A stretch of 64,000 nt of DNA from Bacteroidia bacterium (GCA_030426475.1 JAUHYR010000002.1:1-64000); one strand, 5' to 3'. Numbered from the stretch's first letter, positions 21,152 through 28,504 are shown. The notes: generated from the sequence alone by a model not told the origin. Made by a program: numbers and translations.

Positions 21152-21805
21152 GTGAAACAAAAAGTTTTTGGGTTAGGGTTTCATAAAACAGGCACTTCTA
21201 CCTTAGCTAGTGCATTAGATAAACTAGGGTATAAAGTCTGTGGGCAACAAAATAATTTGGCCCAAAATTTTGTTAATAATGATATTAAAGTTTTTATTGA
21301 GCTAGCTAAAGACTACGATGCATTTGAAGATGATCCATGGCATCAGTTATATAAGGAAATGGACAAAGCTTTTCCAAATAGTAAATTTATATTAACTGAC
21401 AGAGATGTTAATGATTGGTACAAAAGCTGTCTAAATCATTTCTATGAAGATAGTACTTTGATTAGAGATTTTATCTATGGAGATGGTCGCCCAAAAAATA
21501 ATGAGGAAAACTTTAAAAAAGTGTATATTGAACATAAAAAAAATGTAATTGAATACTTTAAAAATAGACCTGAAGACTTTTTAATTGTTGACTTTACCAA
21601 AGGTGAAAGATGGGGCAAAATATGTGCTTTTTTAGAAGTAGAGATACCTGACTCTCCTTTTCCACATGCTAATAAAGGATTGTATACCAAATCTCCTAAT
21701 AGTATTAAAAAAAAGTTTTGGCTTTTTTATAAAAAATATTTTAGTCTTTTATATCACAATATATACAAGCCAATTTTTAAAAAAAATGTAAATAAGAAAA
21801 ATTAG
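21152..21805 (+). CDS. Sulfotransferase family protein
   Basis: 217 residues with a GTG start at 21152; no better start exists. GFHKTGTSTLASALDKLGYK at the N-terminus is the PAPS 5'-phosphosulfate loop, and LTDRDVNDWYKSC fits the 3'-phosphate-binding strand. FLIVDFTKGERWGKICAFL with PDSPFPHANK closes the fold, as in the Sulfotransfer_4 type. The enzyme would move a sulfo group from PAPS to a sugar, lipid or other acceptor in the cytoplasm. No PAPS synthesis, glycosyltransferase or polysaccharide gene is adjacent, so the acceptor is unknown. It lies between exported-protein genes and may belong to the preceding transcript. Confidence 0.85.
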   Translation: MKQKVFGLGFHKTGTSTLASALDKLGYKVCGQQNNLAQNFVNNDIKVFIELAKDYDAFEDDPWHQLYKEMDKAFPNSKFILTDRDVNDWYKSCLNHFYEDSTLIRDFIYGDGRPKNNEENFKKVYIEHKKNVIEYFKNRPEDFLIVDFTKGERWGKICAFLEVEIPDSPFPHANKGLYTKSPNSIKKKFWLFYKKYFSLLYHNIYKPIFKKNVNKKN

Positions 21806-21876
21806 TTTTTTATTAAATCTAACTGATAAAACTCTACTTTCATAACAACTGTTTAAAAGTTAATATAAATCATATT

Positions 21877-21904
21877 TTGGTTTTATTATTTTAAGTTAAT
21901 TTAG
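21877..21904 (+). promoter_or_regulatory. Putative promoter of the first glycine-rich cargo gene
   Basis: TTG (21877-21879), a 17-nt spacer and TAATTTAG (21897-21904), 24 nt before the ATG. This gene lacks the CAAAATA palindrome that precedes its three downstream relatives. Confidence 0.45.
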
Positions 21905-21928
21905 CCCAAATTCCATAAATAATAAATC

Positions 21929-23407
21929 ATGAAAAAACAATTACTAAAATTATTTCTGATTATTTTATCAGCTCTATCATTTAATTTAAATACTAATGCA
22001 CAGTGCCCGAACATTATTTGTCCAGGTAATATAACTTCATGTGATGCGATTGTATCTTATGCTACGCCAGTTGGCACAGACACATGTCAATCAACCTCAT
22101 TTCAAACAGATACATTTAACTTCACAGGAAATATTCAAAAATTTGTAGTTCCTAGTGGAGTAGATACTATAACTGCATCCGTTTGGGGAGCTCAAGGTGG
22201 AGCAAACTGGGTAAACAATACAAATTATGGTGGTTTTGTAAAAGCTGACATCCCAGTAAATGCTGGCGACACACTATATATTTACGTTGGAGAGCAACCT
22301 AATGGGATAACTGGCGGATGGAACGGTGGAGGAAATGGAGAATCTGCCGGACAAGGTGGTGGTGGTGCTTCAGATATTAGAATAGGAGGAACGACATATA
22401 ATGACAGAATACTTGTTGCCGGTGGTGGCGGTGGTGCAGGATATTGGAGTAGTCAGCATGTAGTTGGTGGATACGGTGGTGGATATAACGGAGGATATGG
22501 TTACAGACAAACACCTTCAACTTTTGGGGGGGATCCAGGGACACAAACCTCTAGCGGAAATGGAACATGTGTTAATTTTAATGTCCCTTCAGTTGCTGGA
22601 GGTTTTGGATTTGGCGGTTCACCATCAGGTTGTGGATGCGAAGGCTATGGCGGTGGCGGTGGCTGGTATGGAGGTGCCGGAAGTGGAAACTGCAGAGGCG
22701 GTGGTGGTGGAAGTGGATATATACTTCCTACCTTACAAAACATTTCTATTGATAGCGGCATTCAGGTTGGTCATGGTCAAGTTATTTTAACTTACGGTAC
22801 AACTCCTGCTCCAACTACAAGTCAAATAGCCGGATTACCAAGTGGAAACTCTTTTCCTGTAGGTGTAACTACAAATGTATTCCTTGTTAGTAATGGAACA
22901 CAATCAGATACTTGTTCATTTACCGTAACAGTTGTAAGTATTGACACATCAGTAACTAGAAATTTATCCACTTTTACTTCTAGTGAAAATGGAGCAACCT
23001 ATCAATGGTTAAACTGTGACAGCAACAATATGGCAATTACTGGAGCAACCAATCAAAGCTATACCGCTACTACTAATGGCTCTTATGCGGTAGTTGTATG
23101 CAAAAACGGTTGCACGGATACTTCGGCTTGTCAGATGATAAACAATGTAGGTATTCAAACCATTGACTTTGGAAACATTACAATTTATCCCAATCCAACA
23201 ACTAATGGATTATTTACAGTTGATTTAGGTAAATCAGTTCAAATCAACTATACTATTACTTCATTAGACGGAAGAATAGTAGCTCAGAAAACAAACATTA
23301 TAGAAAATAAAATCATGATAGATTTAAGTAATGAGAGTAAAGGGGTTTATCTATTAAAACTCTACAACATTAAATCATCAAGCGTATTTAGAGTGACCCG
23401 ATTATAG
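21929..23407 (+). CDS. T9SS type A cargo: HYR domain split by a glycine-rich domain (copy 1)
   Basis: 492 residues. A signal peptide ends near NTNAQ. Residues about 26-53 are the first half of a HYR (hyalin repeat) domain (CPGNITSCDAIVSYATPVGT). Residues about 54-294 are a glycine-rich domain with LYIYVGEQ, repeated GGGG stretches and a closing GHGQVILTYG. The second half of HYR then resumes with SQIAGLPSGNSFPVGVTTN and DTCSFTVTV. An Ig-like segment (TYQWLNCDSN, GSYAVVV) follows. The end, IYPNPTTNGLFTV then GRIVAQK and SKGVYLLKL, is a type A sorting domain, so the protein should be secreted by T9SS. It is probably a surface or matrix protein. Confidence 0.85.
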   Translation: MKKQLLKLFLIILSALSFNLNTNAQCPNIICPGNITSCDAIVSYATPVGTDTCQSTSFQTDTFNFTGNIQKFVVPSGVDTITASVWGAQGGANWVNNTNYGGFVKADIPVNAGDTLYIYVGEQPNGITGGWNGGGNGESAGQGGGGASDIRIGGTTYNDRILVAGGGGGAGYWSSQHVVGGYGGGYNGGYGYRQTPSTFGGDPGTQTSSGNGTCVNFNVPSVAGGFGFGGSPSGCGCEGYGGGGGWYGGAGSGNCRGGGGGSGYILPTLQNISIDSGIQVGHGQVILTYGTTPAPTTSQIAGLPSGNSFPVGVTTNVFLVSNGTQSDTCSFTVTVVSIDTSVTRNLSTFTSSENGATYQWLNCDSNNMAITGATNQSYTATTNGSYAVVVCKNGCTDTSACQMINNVGIQTIDFGNITIYPNPTTNGLFTVDLGKSVQINYTITSLDGRIVAQKTNIIENKIMIDLSNESKGVYLLKLYNIKSSSVFRVTRL

Positions 23408-23434
23408 AAATCAATTTGATAATCAAATAAATTG

Positions 23435-23463
23435 AAAGCCTCATCTAATGATGAGGCTTTTTT
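23435..23463 (+). terminator. Intrinsic terminator after copy 1
   Basis: AAAGCCTCATC, a TAAT loop and GATGAGGCTTT form an 11-bp perfect stem followed by T. It is the first of four near-identical hairpins in this cluster. Confidence 0.88.
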
Positions 23464-23490
23464 GCCTAAAATACTTTCCCATTATTTGCT

Positions 23491-23505
23491 CAAAATAATA
23501 TTTTG
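23491..23505 (+). promoter_or_regulatory. Conserved palindrome CAAAATA-A-TATTTTG before copy 2
   Basis: A perfect 7-bp palindrome around one base, preceded by TTTGCT and followed by TTGTTTCTT. It ends 39 nt before the ATG at 23545. Its right half, ATATTTTG, could act as the -7 element. The same element occurs at 25458 and 26875 with almost the same distance to the start. Confidence 0.65.
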
Positions 23506-23544
23506 TTGTTTCTTCCAGTCTGAAAAACCAACTAAAGACCTATT

Positions 23545-25374
23545 ATGAAAAAACATTTACTCTTAACCTTACCTGCTATTTTACTTTTAATACTAACTGT
23601 TGATTCTTTTTCGCAGCAATGTGTTACTATTAATTGTCAGTCAAATATAACTACCAATGCAGACTCAAATGCTTGCGGTTCAATCATAAATTATAATACG
23701 CCCTTTGGTTTTGATTCTTGTTTAGTTGGCAGCCAGACTTTTAATTATACTGGTCAAATAGATACATTTATAGTTCCTACTGGAGTAACTACTTTAACAA
23801 TTGAAGCTACAGGCGCTGCTGGTGGTAATTCAACATGGGCGACATTGCGTCCGGGTGGAAAAGGCTCTTATATAAAGGGTGATGTATCAGTAAGCTCTGG
23901 TGACACAATTTTAGTATTAGTTGGACAACAAGGAGAAAGTGCTGCTGTTGGTGGTGGTGGTGGTGGGTCTTTCACTGCGCTAATAAACAATACTCCATTA
24001 GTCATTGCCGGAGGAGGTGGAGGAGCTTCTTCTGATCAGTCTGGGGTGAATGCTTCAATTACAAATAACGGTACCAATTGTTCTGGAAATTTAATTCTAG
24101 GAGGAACTTCAGGTAACGGAGGAGCGGCATGTGGTCCAAATGGAAATAGTGGAGGAGCTGGTGGTGGATTTCTTACTGATGGTGCTAGTTCTAATACAAA
24201 TGGACCATCAACAGTAGGAGGTTTTGGTGGAAAGTCGTTTACTAATGGAGGAACCGGTGGCATACCTGGTAGATTAGATAATGCATGTACACAAGATGCA
24301 TTTGGCGGGTTTGGTGGAGGCGGAAGTACCTCATGTAATACCGTTGGCGGAGGCGGAGGCGGAGGCTATTCAGGAGGTGCAGGTGGTCCTCACATCAGCC
24401 AATGTGGTGCTTCACAAAGATTTGGTGGTGGTGGTGGTGGTTCCTTTAATGCGGGAACTAATACTATTGATAGTGTGGGAGTTGGAACTGGTAATGGTTT
24501 AGTCGTAATTACTTGGAATGGAGGAACAATAGCTGCCACTCAAACTTCTGGTTTGCCAAGTGGGTCTTTATTTCCTATCGGTACAACTACAAATTCTTTC
24601 TTTGTCACTAACGGAACGCAATCAGACTCCTGTACTTTTACAGTAACAGTTATTGACAGTATAGTTCCAATATTGGTTTGTCCATCAAATGTTGTAACAT
24701 GTAATTCTATTGTTAATGGAATATCACCAAGTTATAATGATAATTGTAATGTTACTGTAAGCTATACATTATCAGGCGCAACCGTTGGCTCAGGAAATAA
24801 TGATGCTAGTGGAACTACATTTAATTATGGTATTACTACCGTGCAGTATTTGGTGTCAGATTCATCCGGAAATTCAGATACATGTTCCTTTACAGTTACC
24901 AATAATAGTGTTGACACATCAGTTACAAGAAACTTATCTACATTTACATCAAACCAAACTGGCGCTTCATACCAGTGGGTATCATGTCCTTCAGGAACTC
25001 CAATAATTGGAGACACTAATATGGTATTTACTGCTACAACCAATGGTTCTTATGCTGTTATTGTTAGTAATGGCCTTTGTACTGATACCTCCGCTTGCTT
25101 TACAATAAACAATGTAGGCATTCAAACTATTGACTTTGGAAATGTTTCTATTTACCCTAATCCAACCAATGGATTGGTTACGATAGATATGGGAGACTAT
25201 GACGAGACTGTCAACTATACTATTACTTCAATAGATGGAAGAACAGTAGCTCAGAAAACAAATATTGCAGACAACAAAATAACTATTGATTTAGGTAATG
25301 AAAGTAAAGGAGTTTATTTACTTAAACTTTACAACACCAAATCATCTAGTGTATTTAGAATAAATAGACTATAG
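23545..25374 (+). CDS. T9SS type A cargo: HYR/glycine-rich protein with a second HYR domain (copy 2)
   Basis: 609 residues with signal peptide MKKHLLLTLPAILLLILTV. The layout is as in copy 1: the first half of HYR (NITTNADSNACGSIINY), a glycine-rich domain at about residues 60-330 with ILVLVGQQGE and VIAGGGGGASSD, and the HYR closing half (TSGLPSGSLFPIGTTTNSF). An additional complete HYR-type domain follows (PILVCPSNVVTCNSIV through SDTCSFTVT), then the Ig-like segment and the type A sorting domain (IYPNPTNGLVTIDMG). The extra HYR explains its greater length. Long GGA/GGT runs leave other frames open, but those are not genes. Expected location: cell surface. Confidence 0.85.
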   Translation: MKKHLLLTLPAILLLILTVDSFSQQCVTINCQSNITTNADSNACGSIINYNTPFGFDSCLVGSQTFNYTGQIDTFIVPTGVTTLTIEATGAAGGNSTWATLRPGGKGSYIKGDVSVSSGDTILVLVGQQGESAAVGGGGGGSFTALINNTPLVIAGGGGGASSDQSGVNASITNNGTNCSGNLILGGTSGNGGAACGPNGNSGGAGGGFLTDGASSNTNGPSTVGGFGGKSFTNGGTGGIPGRLDNACTQDAFGGFGGGGSTSCNTVGGGGGGGYSGGAGGPHISQCGASQRFGGGGGGSFNAGTNTIDSVGVGTGNGLVVITWNGGTIAATQTSGLPSGSLFPIGTTTNSFFVTNGTQSDSCTFTVTVIDSIVPILVCPSNVVTCNSIVNGISPSYNDNCNVTVSYTLSGATVGSGNNDASGTTFNYGITTVQYLVSDSSGNSDTCSFTVTNNSVDTSVTRNLSTFTSNQTGASYQWVSCPSGTPIIGDTNMVFTATTNGSYAVIVSNGLCTDTSACFTINNVGIQTIDFGNVSIYPNPTNGLVTIDMGDYDETVNYTITSIDGRTVAQKTNIADNKITIDLGNESKGVYLLKLYNTKSSSVFRINRL

Positions 25375-25464
25375 AAATTAATTTTTTAATCTAATTACTC
25401 TAAAGCCTCATCGAAAGATGGGGCTTTCTTGTCTAAAATATATTCTTGTGACTTGCTCAAAATA
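25342..25464 (+). repeat. 123-nt direct repeat, first copy
   Basis: Identical base for base to 26759-26881. It covers the last 11 codons or so of this gene, the stop, the terminator hairpin and the left half of the palindrome. See the second copy. Confidence 0.95.
25402..25430 (+). terminator. Intrinsic terminator after copy 2
   Basis: AAAGCCTCATC, a GAAA loop and GATGGGGCTTT. There is one T-G wobble; a mixed TTTCTT tail follows. Confidence 0.82.
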
Positions 25465-25472
25465 ATATTTTG
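25458..25472 (+). promoter_or_regulatory. Conserved palindrome CAAAATA-A-TATTTTG before the 25511 gene
   Basis: The same 15-mer as at 23491, in the same sequence context (TTGCT before, TTGTTTCTT after), ending 38 nt before the ATG. The shared flanks suggest a common promoter for these cargo genes. Confidence 0.65.
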
Positions 25473-25510
25473 TTGTTTCTTTCCACTCCTAAACCAATTC
25501 AATATATTTT

Positions 25511-26791
25511 ATGAAAAAAATCTATTCTCTATTATTTTTAGGGTTATTGCTATCATTTATAGCAAAATCTCAAACGATTATGTGGACCGACTCATTTATT
25601 AATGGACAAGGTGCCACCCCTGCTCAAGTTACGGCATGGAATAACTTTAGAGCCCAATTAACTCCCAATGTCTGTTATTCTAAAATGGTTATTAAAGGTA
25701 CTTTTGATACTATTGGGCAAGTTTGTACCGACCCAACTATTGTTTCTGCATATGCAAATGCTTTAAATACAGTTACTGCATACACTAGCCCTTTAACAAA
25801 TGGAAACGTCTGGTCATTATGTAATCGATATTCAGGAGAAGTTTGGTTAAATCCTCCTTCTCAATGCAGTGGCTCAAATTGTCCTACGGGATATATTATT
25901 AGACCTGCAATTGGAGGAACTAATCCGAACTGGGGAGGTGTAAATACGGCAACTTGTGGTGCTCCAAATCAAAGAATGACTTTTATATTTTACTTTGGTA
26001 CTTCCTCAACTATAAGTGCTAGTGCATGTAATAGTTATATCTCACCAAGTGGAAATTACACTTGGACTTCTACAGGTATATATATGGACACTGTACCAAA
26101 TTCAAAAAATTGCGATAGTGTTATAACTGTCAATTTAACCATAAATAGTACGACTTCATCAATAAGTCCAACAGCTTGTGCTACCTACACTTCTCCAAGT
26201 GGAAAAGTATTTACTTCAAGCGGAACATATTCAGATACTATTCCAAATGCAGTTAACTGTGATAGTATTATTTCTATAAACTTAACCATTAATCCATTAC
26301 CTATAATCTCTATTACATCGTTAACTAACGATACAGTATGTGTTCAAACAGATAGTATTGCCCTACCAAATGCAAGTCCTTCTGGAGGTTCGTATTCTGG
26401 AACCGGAGTTAGCGGAAACTCATTTTCTCCTTCAAATGCAGGAGTTGGTAGCTATTATATTGTCTACACCTATACTGATAATAATAATTGTACTAATTCT
26501 GATTCAGTTATGATAACAGTTGATGGCTGTGTAGGAATTAATGAATTTGAAAATTATAACATATCTATTTATCCAAATCCAACTAACGGATTGTTTACCA
26601 TAGATATGGGAAGATATAATAGTATAGTTAACTATACTATTACATCAATAGATGGAAGAATAGTAGCGAAAAACTCAAACATTACAGACAACAAGATTAT
26701 GATAGATTTAAGTAATGAAAGTAAAGGAGTTTATTTACTTAAACTTTACAATACAAAGTCATCTAGTGTATTTAGAATAAATAGACTATAG
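25511..26791 (+). CDS. T9SS type A cargo with unique N-domain and two short repeats
   Basis: 426 residues. A signal peptide (SLLFLGLLLSFIAKSQ) comes first. Residues about 20-175 (TIMWTDSFINGQGATPAQV and onwards, with several Cys) match no family I know. Two repeats of about 45 residues follow, ACNSYISPSGNYTWTSTGIY and ACATYTSPSGKVFTSSGTYS, each ending in NCDSxIxxNLTIN, a pattern common in Bacteroidota secreted proteins. The end is a type A sorting domain (SIYPNPTNGLFTIDMGRYN then SKGVYLLKLYN). It lies between HYR/glycine-rich paralogues and shares their C-terminus and promoter palindrome but not their body, so a C-terminal tail and promoter have been joined to a different passenger. Confidence 0.82.
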   Translation: MKKIYSLLFLGLLLSFIAKSQTIMWTDSFINGQGATPAQVTAWNNFRAQLTPNVCYSKMVIKGTFDTIGQVCTDPTIVSAYANALNTVTAYTSPLTNGNVWSLCNRYSGEVWLNPPSQCSGSNCPTGYIIRPAIGGTNPNWGGVNTATCGAPNQRMTFIFYFGTSSTISASACNSYISPSGNYTWTSTGIYMDTVPNSKNCDSVITVNLTINSTTSSISPTACATYTSPSGKVFTSSGTYSDTIPNAVNCDSIISINLTINPLPIISITSLTNDTVCVQTDSIALPNASPSGGSYSGTGVSGNSFSPSNAGVGSYYIVYTYTDNNNCTNSDSVMITVDGCVGINEFENYNISIYPNPTNGLFTIDMGRYNSIVNYTITSIDGRIVAKNSNITDNKIMIDLSNESKGVYLLKLYNTKSSSVFRINRL

Positions 26792-26881
26792 AAATTAATT
26801 TTTTAATCTAATTACTCTAAAGCCTCATCGAAAGATGGGGCTTTCTTGTCTAAAATATATTCTTGTGACTTGCTCAAAATA
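26759..26881 (+). repeat. 123-nt direct repeat, second copy
   Basis: Identical to 25342-25464. Identity includes non-coding sequence and synonymous sites, so the duplication or gene conversion is recent; flanking sequence diverges gradually. Confidence 0.95.
26819..26847 (+). terminator. Intrinsic terminator after the 25511 gene
   Basis: The same hairpin as at 25402 (within the direct repeat): AAAGCCTCATC, GAAA, GATGGGGCTTT. Confidence 0.82.
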
Positions 26882-26889
26882 CTATTTTG
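26875..26889 (+). promoter_or_regulatory. Conserved palindrome CAAAATA-C-TATTTTG before copy 3
   Basis: The same palindrome with a different central base, ending 39 nt before the ATG at 26929. Retention of both arms while the middle base changed supports a functional inverted repeat. Confidence 0.65.
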
Positions 26890-26928
26890 TCGTTCCTTTA
26901 AGTCTGAAAAACCAGCTAAACATTTATT

Positions 26929-28449
26929 ATGAAAAAACAATTACTAAAATTATTTTTTGGCGTTATTGCAATTAGCTTTAGTTTTACTTTAAGTGCGCAA
27001 TGCCCAAGCATAATGTGTCCTTCAAATATTACTGTAAATAGTGACTCAGGGATATGTGGGGCTATAGTAAATTATACAGCACCTGTAGGAACTGATACTT
27101 GTAATGTTAATTCAGATACTCTTTTCTACACTGGTGCAATTGTAAATTGGAATGTACCTGCTGGTGTAACTGCAATTAAAATAGAGGCAAGAGGAGCTGA
27201 AGGTAGTTTTAACACATCATCATCTGTTCAACCTGGAAAGGGTGCTATAATGATAGGTGACTTTACAGTGACATCAGGGCAAACATTAAAAATATTAGTT
27301 GGACAACAATATTCATCATCAGCCGGTAATGGTGGTGGTGGTGGTACATTTGTAACTGACTCGGCAAATAATCCATTAATTGTTGCAGGTGGTGGTGGCG
27401 GCTCATCCCAAACGGTTGATTCACCCGATAAACATGGTCAGGTTGGTACAACTGGTGGAACAGGTGCAGGAGGTGGTGGAACAGGCGGTACGAACGGAAA
27501 TGGAGGAAATATAGGTGCTACTTTTGCTTCGGGAGCTGGAGGAGGATTATTAACTAACGGAGCTACTGGTTGGACAGCTAATACGGGAGGTATTGCTTTT
27601 ATTAATGGAGGTTCTGGAGGTACCGCAAATAATAATGCCCAAGGTGGATTTGGCGGAGGAGGAAGTGGTTCTTCTTATGTAGTAGGTGGCGGAGGCGGAG
27701 GCTACTCAGGTGGTGGTGCCGGTTCAAATAGTGCTGGTGCTGGTGTTGGTGGTGGCGGAGGTTCATTTAATGCCGGGACTAATCAAGTTAATACTGGTGG
27801 TGCTAATTCAGGTCATGGTCAAGTAATAATTTCCTGGACTAGTGATAGTGTTTCCACAACTCAAATAGCCGGTTTATCAAGTGGTTCATTATTTCCTGGC
27901 GGAACGACAACCAATACATTTGTGGTAACAAGCGGTTCATTCTCTGACACCTGTTCATTTACAGTTTATGTAGGAGGCGGAGTTGATACCTCAGTAAGCA
28001 GAAACCTCTCAACTTTTACAGCTAACGAAACCGGAGCTACTTATCAGTGGTTAAATTGTGATAGTAATTACATGGTAATCAGTGGAGCAACAAATCAAGC
28101 TTACACAGCTACAACAAATGGTTCGTATGCAGTTGTGGTAAGTAAAAATGGTTGTACAGATACTTCTGCTTGTCAAATGATAAACAATGTAGGTATTAAT
28201 ACTGTTGACTTTAAAAACATCTCTATTTATCCAAACCCGACAAATGGATTGTTTACATTAGATTTAGGAAATAATAATAAAGCCGTAAACTACACCATAA
28301 CTTCAATAGATGGAAGAATAGTAGAACAAAAAGTAAACATTACAGATAATAAAATCATGATAGATTTAAGTAATGAAAATAAAGGAGTTTATTTACTTAA
28401 ACTTTACAATACAAAGTCATCTAGTGTATTTAGAATAACTAAACTATAA
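26929..28449 (+). CDS. T9SS type A cargo: HYR domain split by a glycine-rich domain (copy 3)
   Basis: 506 residues, closest to copy 1: the first residues MKKQLLKLF are shared, then CPSNITVNSDSGICGAIVNY (first HYR half). A glycine-rich domain spans about residues 60-300 (LKILVGQQYSSSAGNGGGGG, VAGGGGGSSQ, SGHGQVIISW). The HYR end is TQIAGLSSGSLFPGGTTTN. Next come the Ig-like segment with TYQWLNCDSNYMVISGATNQ and a type A sorting domain (SIYPNPTNGLFTLDLG, VYLLKLYNTKSSSVFR). It is the last of the four-gene cluster and is followed by its own hairpin. A surface-structural role is likely; no enzyme motif is seen. Confidence 0.85.
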   Translation: MKKQLLKLFFGVIAISFSFTLSAQCPSIMCPSNITVNSDSGICGAIVNYTAPVGTDTCNVNSDTLFYTGAIVNWNVPAGVTAIKIEARGAEGSFNTSSSVQPGKGAIMIGDFTVTSGQTLKILVGQQYSSSAGNGGGGGTFVTDSANNPLIVAGGGGGSSQTVDSPDKHGQVGTTGGTGAGGGGTGGTNGNGGNIGATFASGAGGGLLTNGATGWTANTGGIAFINGGSGGTANNNAQGGFGGGGSGSSYVVGGGGGGYSGGGAGSNSAGAGVGGGGGSFNAGTNQVNTGGANSGHGQVIISWTSDSVSTTQIAGLSSGSLFPGGTTTNTFVVTSGSFSDTCSFTVYVGGGVDTSVSRNLSTFTANETGATYQWLNCDSNYMVISGATNQAYTATTNGSYAVVVSKNGCTDTSACQMINNVGINTVDFKNISIYPNPTNGLFTLDLGNNNKAVNYTITSIDGRIVEQKVNITDNKIMIDLSNENKGVYLLKLYNTKSSSVFRITKL

Positions 28450-28475
28450 AATTAAACTAGTTTACTCCTCCTATT

Positions 28476-28504
28476 AAAGCCTCATCCAACGATGGGGCTT
28501 TTTA
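28476..28504 (+). terminator. Intrinsic terminator after copy 3
   Basis: AAAGCCTCATC, a CAAC loop and GATGGGGCTTT followed by TT: the fourth member of the cluster's hairpin family. Confidence 0.82.

Follow-up and report, generated by a model that had tools for sequence, protein, structure and literature searches.

Three tandem genes of a Bacteroidia bacterium encode T9SS cargo proteins in which an HYR domain is split by a whole second domain, and we propose that this HYR domain is a disulfide-clamped socket that displays exchangeable recognition heads on T9SS proteins. We put the probability of this reading, in which binding by the heads is presumed, at roughly 0.6. A broader version is that HYR is a general plug-in socket across the Bacteroidota: one loop would have received unrelated recognition domains time after time, and T9SS surface proteins would change what they bind by exchanging these heads. 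We rate this broader version at slightly less than even odds. The evidence comes from sequence comparisons, which establish the split, its fixed site, the coupling of two cysteines, the identity and variety of the inserts, and the polyphyly of the inserts. The HYR domain and the inserted glycine-rich domain (GRD) are each already known. As the preliminary description had supposed, we found no description in the open-access literature of a GRD, or of several domain families, nested in one HYR loop.

The genes lie in a window of 64,000 nucleotides (JAUHYR010000002.1:1-64000, from GCA_030426475.1), and the interval 21929-28449 contains four ORFs, all on the plus strand. A T9SS type A sorting domain forms the C-terminus of all four proteins (TIGR04183 scores of 35.8-41 bits, versus a curated cut-off of 23). 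Three of them contain a split HYR domain: W1 (21929..23407, 492 amino acids), W2 (23545..25374, 609 amino acids), and W4 (26929..28449, 506 amino acids). The other, W3 (25511..26791), is a type A cargo protein without a split HYR or a GRD; it has its tail and upstream region in common with its neighbors. W1, W2, and W4 begin with a signal peptide, which is followed by the first half of the HYR domain, ending in G[TF]D[TS]C, and then by a glycine-rich stretch. After the insert, the HYR motif resumes as TTQIAGLxSGSxFPxGTTTN...C[ST]FTV. In W1, the N-terminal half (residues 24-53, at 21998..22087, ending in GTDTC) is followed by an insert of 243 residues (residues 54-296, at 22088..22816) and by the C-terminal half (residues 297-337, at 22817..22939); an Ig-like region and the sorting domain complete the protein. 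In W2, the N-terminal half (residues 24-59, at 23614..23721) ends in GFDSC, the insert has 271 residues (residues 60-330, at 23722..24534), and the C-terminal half (residues 331-371, at 24535..24657) precedes a second HYR-type domain (Pfam match at 402-452), an Ig-like region, and the sorting domain. In W4, the corresponding parts are residues 24-58 (26998..27102, ending in GTDTC), an insert of 251 residues (residues 59-309, at 27103..27855), and residues 310-349 (27856..27975). With their signal peptides and with sorting domains above the curated cut-off, these proteins resemble known T9SS type A cargo, but their nested N-terminal architecture is outside the definition of TIGR04183. T9SS cargo may be either surface anchored or released, according to PMC10202324.

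Several other features of the region are worth recording. An extra cysteine directly follows the signal peptide (A-Q-C) at the mature N-termini of the nested proteins (at 21998, 23614, and 26998 of the window) and in most other N-terminal nested HYR domains: it is present in 26 of 30 GRD-split HYR domains versus 0 of 59 unsplit ones. We rejected lipoprotein anchoring via the N-terminal QC, which, judged by reading only, is not a lipobox. Upstream of W2, W3, and W4 there is a conserved stretch of about 125 nucleotides (78-85% identical by BLAST), and an element of about 53 nucleotides is repeated at gene ends and again before the next gene (intergenic, within 21800-28500). An Rfam scan of the region, including these intergenic elements, gave no match, and scans for promoters and terminators gave counts at the level expected by chance.

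The two halves of the split HYR domain (PF02494) evidently behave as one domain, as judged from Pfam scores of the joined halves, cysteine covariation, and structural models. When joined, the halves score 22.8 bits (W1), 32.3 bits (W2), and 30.5 bits (W4), as compared to the Pfam cut-off of 21.7, and cover nearly the whole profile. Taken singly, they match complementary parts of the profile (about 5-39 and 41-81) with scores of 0 to 22.5 bits, and each half scores less than the joined domain. Domain searches miss split HYR domains because the halves, taken separately, tend to score below the threshold for detection. The GLxSGxxFPxGTTT motif and the full set of four cysteines are retained, as in other HYR domains; but ordinary HYR domains are continuous, whereas these are broken by a whole domain after the third cysteine. 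The preliminary description was correct that an HYR domain begins, is interrupted by about 240-270 glycine-rich residues, and then resumes, and that the joint is the same in all three paralogs.

To compare split and unsplit forms, we used an alignment of 93 HYR domains: 59 unsplit, 30 with a GRD, and 4 split without a GRD (one of which is probably mispaired). The spacing between the halves is bimodal, with 1-32 amino acids in the 59 unsplit domains and 240-281 amino acids in the roughly 30 GRD cases. Cysteines 1 and 4 are both present in 78 domains and both absent from 13, and no domain has just one of them. This holds for the unsplit domains (46 with both, 12 with neither, and none with either one singly; Fisher P = 1e-12) and for the split domains (32 with both, none with either one singly, and one, in locus L073, with neither). 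Since the insert separates these two cysteines, which are lost only together, the halves evidently pair across it; a bond spanning the insert predicts just this pattern, and we infer from the covariation that the two cysteines would form a disulfide. An HYR model built from the unsplit rows only still recovered 10 complementary splits, all around the cysteine 3 joint (the DNC site). AlphaFold2 models of the nested regions of W1 (mean pLDDT 91.9, pTM 0.84) and W4 (mean pLDDT 89.3, pTM 0.83) predict strands in both HYR halves with confidence. The first segment does seem to pair with the later half, as had been proposed. To judge from the list of strands, the joint is probably in the loop that connects main strands two and three of the Ig-like fold.

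By its profile and model matches, the insert is an ALK/LTK-type GRD. PF12810 (cut-off 24.5 bits) matches W1 with 92.1 bits (E = 7e-26) and W2 with 23.4 bits; the full-length W4 protein has no listed match, and its nested region alone scores 10.7 bits. Across this genome, six of the seven nested regions match PF12810 at E ≤ 1. W4 also matches ALK receptor chains directly (phmmer E = 9e-7). In Foldseek searches, the predicted models match ALK/LTK structures with E = 1.6e-10 and a TM score of about 0.5 (W4) or E = 7.6e-8 and a TM score of about 0.4 (W1), and the next matches of both models are to the fiber of cyanophage Pam3. The expected fold is a TNF-like sandwich with polyglycine-II helices, not a plain sheet. 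The preliminary description of a sheet-forming glycine-rich insert was therefore partly right: the insert is glycine rich and sheet is part of the picture, but PF12810, phmmer, and Foldseek identify an ALK/LTK-type GRD instead of an unnamed plain sheet.

Nested GRDs are widespread in the class. Full-length forms are present in 22 sampled genomes with seven family codes (f1, f10, f24, f28, f29, f37, and f41), and the named records include Ulvibacter litoralis and a Fluviicola MAG. The genome of W1, W2, and W4 has four further nested paralogs on contig C79, one of them truncated by the contig end. Chance and a sequencing or assembly fault are both ruled out by these paralogs and by the presence of nested forms in so many genomes; the preliminary description had likewise discounted a sequencing fault. 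The expectation that split HYR domains with a GRD would be found elsewhere in the Bacteroidota was borne out. Among the sequences that we fetched, no nested form was found outside the Bacteroidota. Free GRDs are more common than nested ones and are also found in Pseudomonadota, Myxococcota, Verrucomicrobiota, a Woesearchaeota MAG, and viral contigs (for the last two, see loci L036 and L081-L084). Some GRD matches contain in-frame stops (G288:C27, G311:C1, G073:C20, and G391:C77), which could be either decaying copies or the model running over beyond the gene start.

Close paralogs in the same genome also provide "empty sites," that is, unsplit HYR domains, on contigs C79 and C59 (L016 2573-4501 and L017 319-1875). 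In the first of these proteins, a free GRD at the N-terminus precedes an unsplit HYR, so that a single protein contains the two domains un-nested. In L094, from another family, an unsplit HYR directly follows a split one. In both clusters of this genome, a W3-like, non-nested T9SS cargo gene lies among the nested genes (25511-26791 of the window and L016 8039-9334), and the presence of a W3-type gene in each suggests that the two clusters are old duplicates.

The preliminary description took the shared joint to mean an old, stable insertion. Although the joint is indeed conserved, the inserts do not share a single history. In a tree of 109 GRDs, the nested state requires 13 changes, at least 8 of them on well-supported branches, although the number of events is uncertain because this is a quick tree from a gap-rich, glycine-biased alignment, with many weak branches. 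Some of the changes from nested to free could be escapes rather than insertions. Placing all nested GRDs in one clade is rejected (dlnL 454, AU P = 2e-52), so they are polyphyletic, and a single clade for the six inserts from this genome that are in the tree is also rejected (P = 1e-7). The W1 insert clusters with inserts from Ulvibacter and with other nested inserts; the W4 insert clusters with inserts from another genus and another family, to which it is 72% identical; and the closest sampled relative of the W2 insert is a free GRD of Cocleimonas (support 98). This GRD, from a gammaproteobacterium (L024 2980-3819), is 60% identical to the W2 insert, and horizontal transfer is a possible explanation for the similarity.

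The inserts are also discordant with their hosts. Within this genome, mean identity is 65% for the HYR domain and 76% for the tail, as compared to 46% for the insert. W4 and the paralog C79c are 88% identical across the HYR domain and 43% identical across the insert, and BLAST homology between them breaks off close to where the insert begins and picks up again near its end. Polyphyly of the inserts, combined with this discordance, makes repeated loading or exchange likelier than a single insertion, and exchange of inserts seems to explain the pattern better than other histories do. Discordance between host and insert could also arise if W1, W2, and W4 represent old nested subfamilies that were inherited as such, with no recent exchange of inserts, while gene conversion homogenized the signal peptide, HYR domain, and tail. 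The recurrence of W1-type and W4-type inserts, in nested form, in other genera and families fits this scenario, as does the conservation of upstream regions and tails among the paralogs. However, nested and free GRDs are mixed within supported branches, as with W2 and the Cocleimonas GRD, and identity in the flanking DNA among W1, W2, and W4, at about 73-81%, is too low for any homogenization to have been recent. Overall, we consider old subfamilies to be a somewhat unlikely explanation.

The same HYR slot accepts other domains in other genomes, so the feature is, by profile matches, broader than glycine-rich inserts. We ran HYR half-models over 164 fetched loci. The halves were separated by less than 20 amino acids in 173 cases, large inserts had 141-281 amino acids, and nothing in between was reliable. 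About 19 of the large inserts were not GRDs, which is not an estimate of their frequency, as the loci were drawn by split-HYR queries. They include FBA in L034 (Pfam E = 1e-36), a C-type lectin (Lectin_C) in L149 (E = 4e-14), a P-domain (P_proprotein) in L133 (E = 6e-10), and Reelin subrepeat B (Reelin-B) in L134 (E = 3e-11) and, more weakly, in L073. The inserts in L153, L154, L155, L138, and L037 have no Pfam name, and NCBIfam profiles gave almost no matches to the non-GRD inserts. In some proteins (L133, L138, L139, L143, and L153), consecutive HYR domains bear different inserts. We left the apparent non-GRD insert of L157 out of the insert types because it is an artifact: a GRD segment, TGAIVNW, mimics the GAIVNY of HYR. 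Two further cases, of 75 amino acids in L034 and 90 amino acids in L089, were also left out of the count, since their halves seem to be mispaired.

What the inserts do may be judged by analogy. The TNF-like and glycine-rich parts, the sequence match, and the whole-model Foldseek match (E = 1e-10) all link the insert to the GRD of the ALK/LTK receptors (PF12810; PDB 7nwz, 7nx1, and 7lrz). However, ALK's GRD is in the ectodomain of a receptor tyrosine kinase, beside an EGF-like domain, while the GRD described here is in a loop of a bacterial HYR domain on T9SS cargo. The TNF-like/glycine-rich fold is also found in phage tips, namely gp24 of Pam3, which our models matched, and gp38 of Salmonella phage S16; these have glycine-rich stems and variable distal loops that are proposed to be receptor-binding sites (PMC9608196, PMC6851490). 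In Pam3, the TNF-like and glycine-rich domain is responsible for host recognition, and its similarity to ALK has been remarked on (PMC9608196); in S16, the tip has polyglycine-II helices, and its variable distal loops are tied to host range (PMC6851490). Unlike the present GRDs, the phage domains belong to trimeric viral fibers or fiber caps and are neither nested in an Ig-like domain nor exported by T9SS. Given these fold relatives and the alternative inserts in the slot, the GRD may bind partners in an insert-dependent way, and a surface-adhesin function for the putative heads is plausible; the preliminary description had suggested a surface fiber or adhesive. Conversely, the glycine-rich composition, the several paralogs per genome, and the T9SS sorting domains would suit a structural or protective element of a surface coat or fiber rather than a recognition head. 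We think that this is unlikely: the insert matches ligand-binding structures of ALK/LTK and a receptor-binding phage fiber, it diverges more than any other part of paralogs that are otherwise alike, and the alternatives in the slot include a C-type lectin and other binding-type folds. That the HYR pieces do not fold together but are unrelated remnants on either side of an ordinary GRD is very improbable: single halves are indeed below or barely at the Pfam cut-off, but two unrelated half domains are contradicted by the perfect coupling of cysteines 1 and 4, and the empty sites in paralogs, the confident AlphaFold2 models, and a joint that is fixed across seven family codes also argue against it.

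If the HYR domain is a socket for recognition heads, then W1, W2, and W4 would be T9SS-exported surface or secreted proteins with the N-terminal HYR (Ig-like) module as the socket. The chain would build the initial HYR strands as far as the third cysteine, exit into a whole separate domain, and re-enter to complete the HYR fold. A disulfide between cysteines 1 and 4, which lie before and after the insert, respectively, would clamp the halves together, with cysteine 3 at the base of the insert. In the TNF-like sandwich with polyglycine-II helices, the connecting loops would be free to vary, as in the receptor-binding tips of phage fibers. The inserted domain would be the recognition head, and the HYR domain, Ig-like region, and T9SS tail would form a conserved chassis. 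This scheme involves export by Sec, formation of the HYR clamp by oxidative folding, surface display via T9SS, and recognition or adhesion by the insert, all of which are presumed. The slot would have been loaded repeatedly, with different lineages of GRDs and, in other Bacteroidota, with C-type lectins, P-domains, FBA, Reelin-B, and unnamed domains.

Among the proteins that these bacteria secrete, HYR modules are common, and they are usually taken to be plain spacers or adhesion modules. If our proposal is true, then ALK-type glycine-rich domains are exchangeable parts of bacterial surface proteins, and the loop offers protein display an insertion site that nature has already tested. Moreover, if one HYR loop is a standard socket, then many proteins that seem to comprise HYR plus a region of unknown function could be reinterpreted as a chassis with a recognition head, and the head could be identified by cutting at the cysteine 3 joint.
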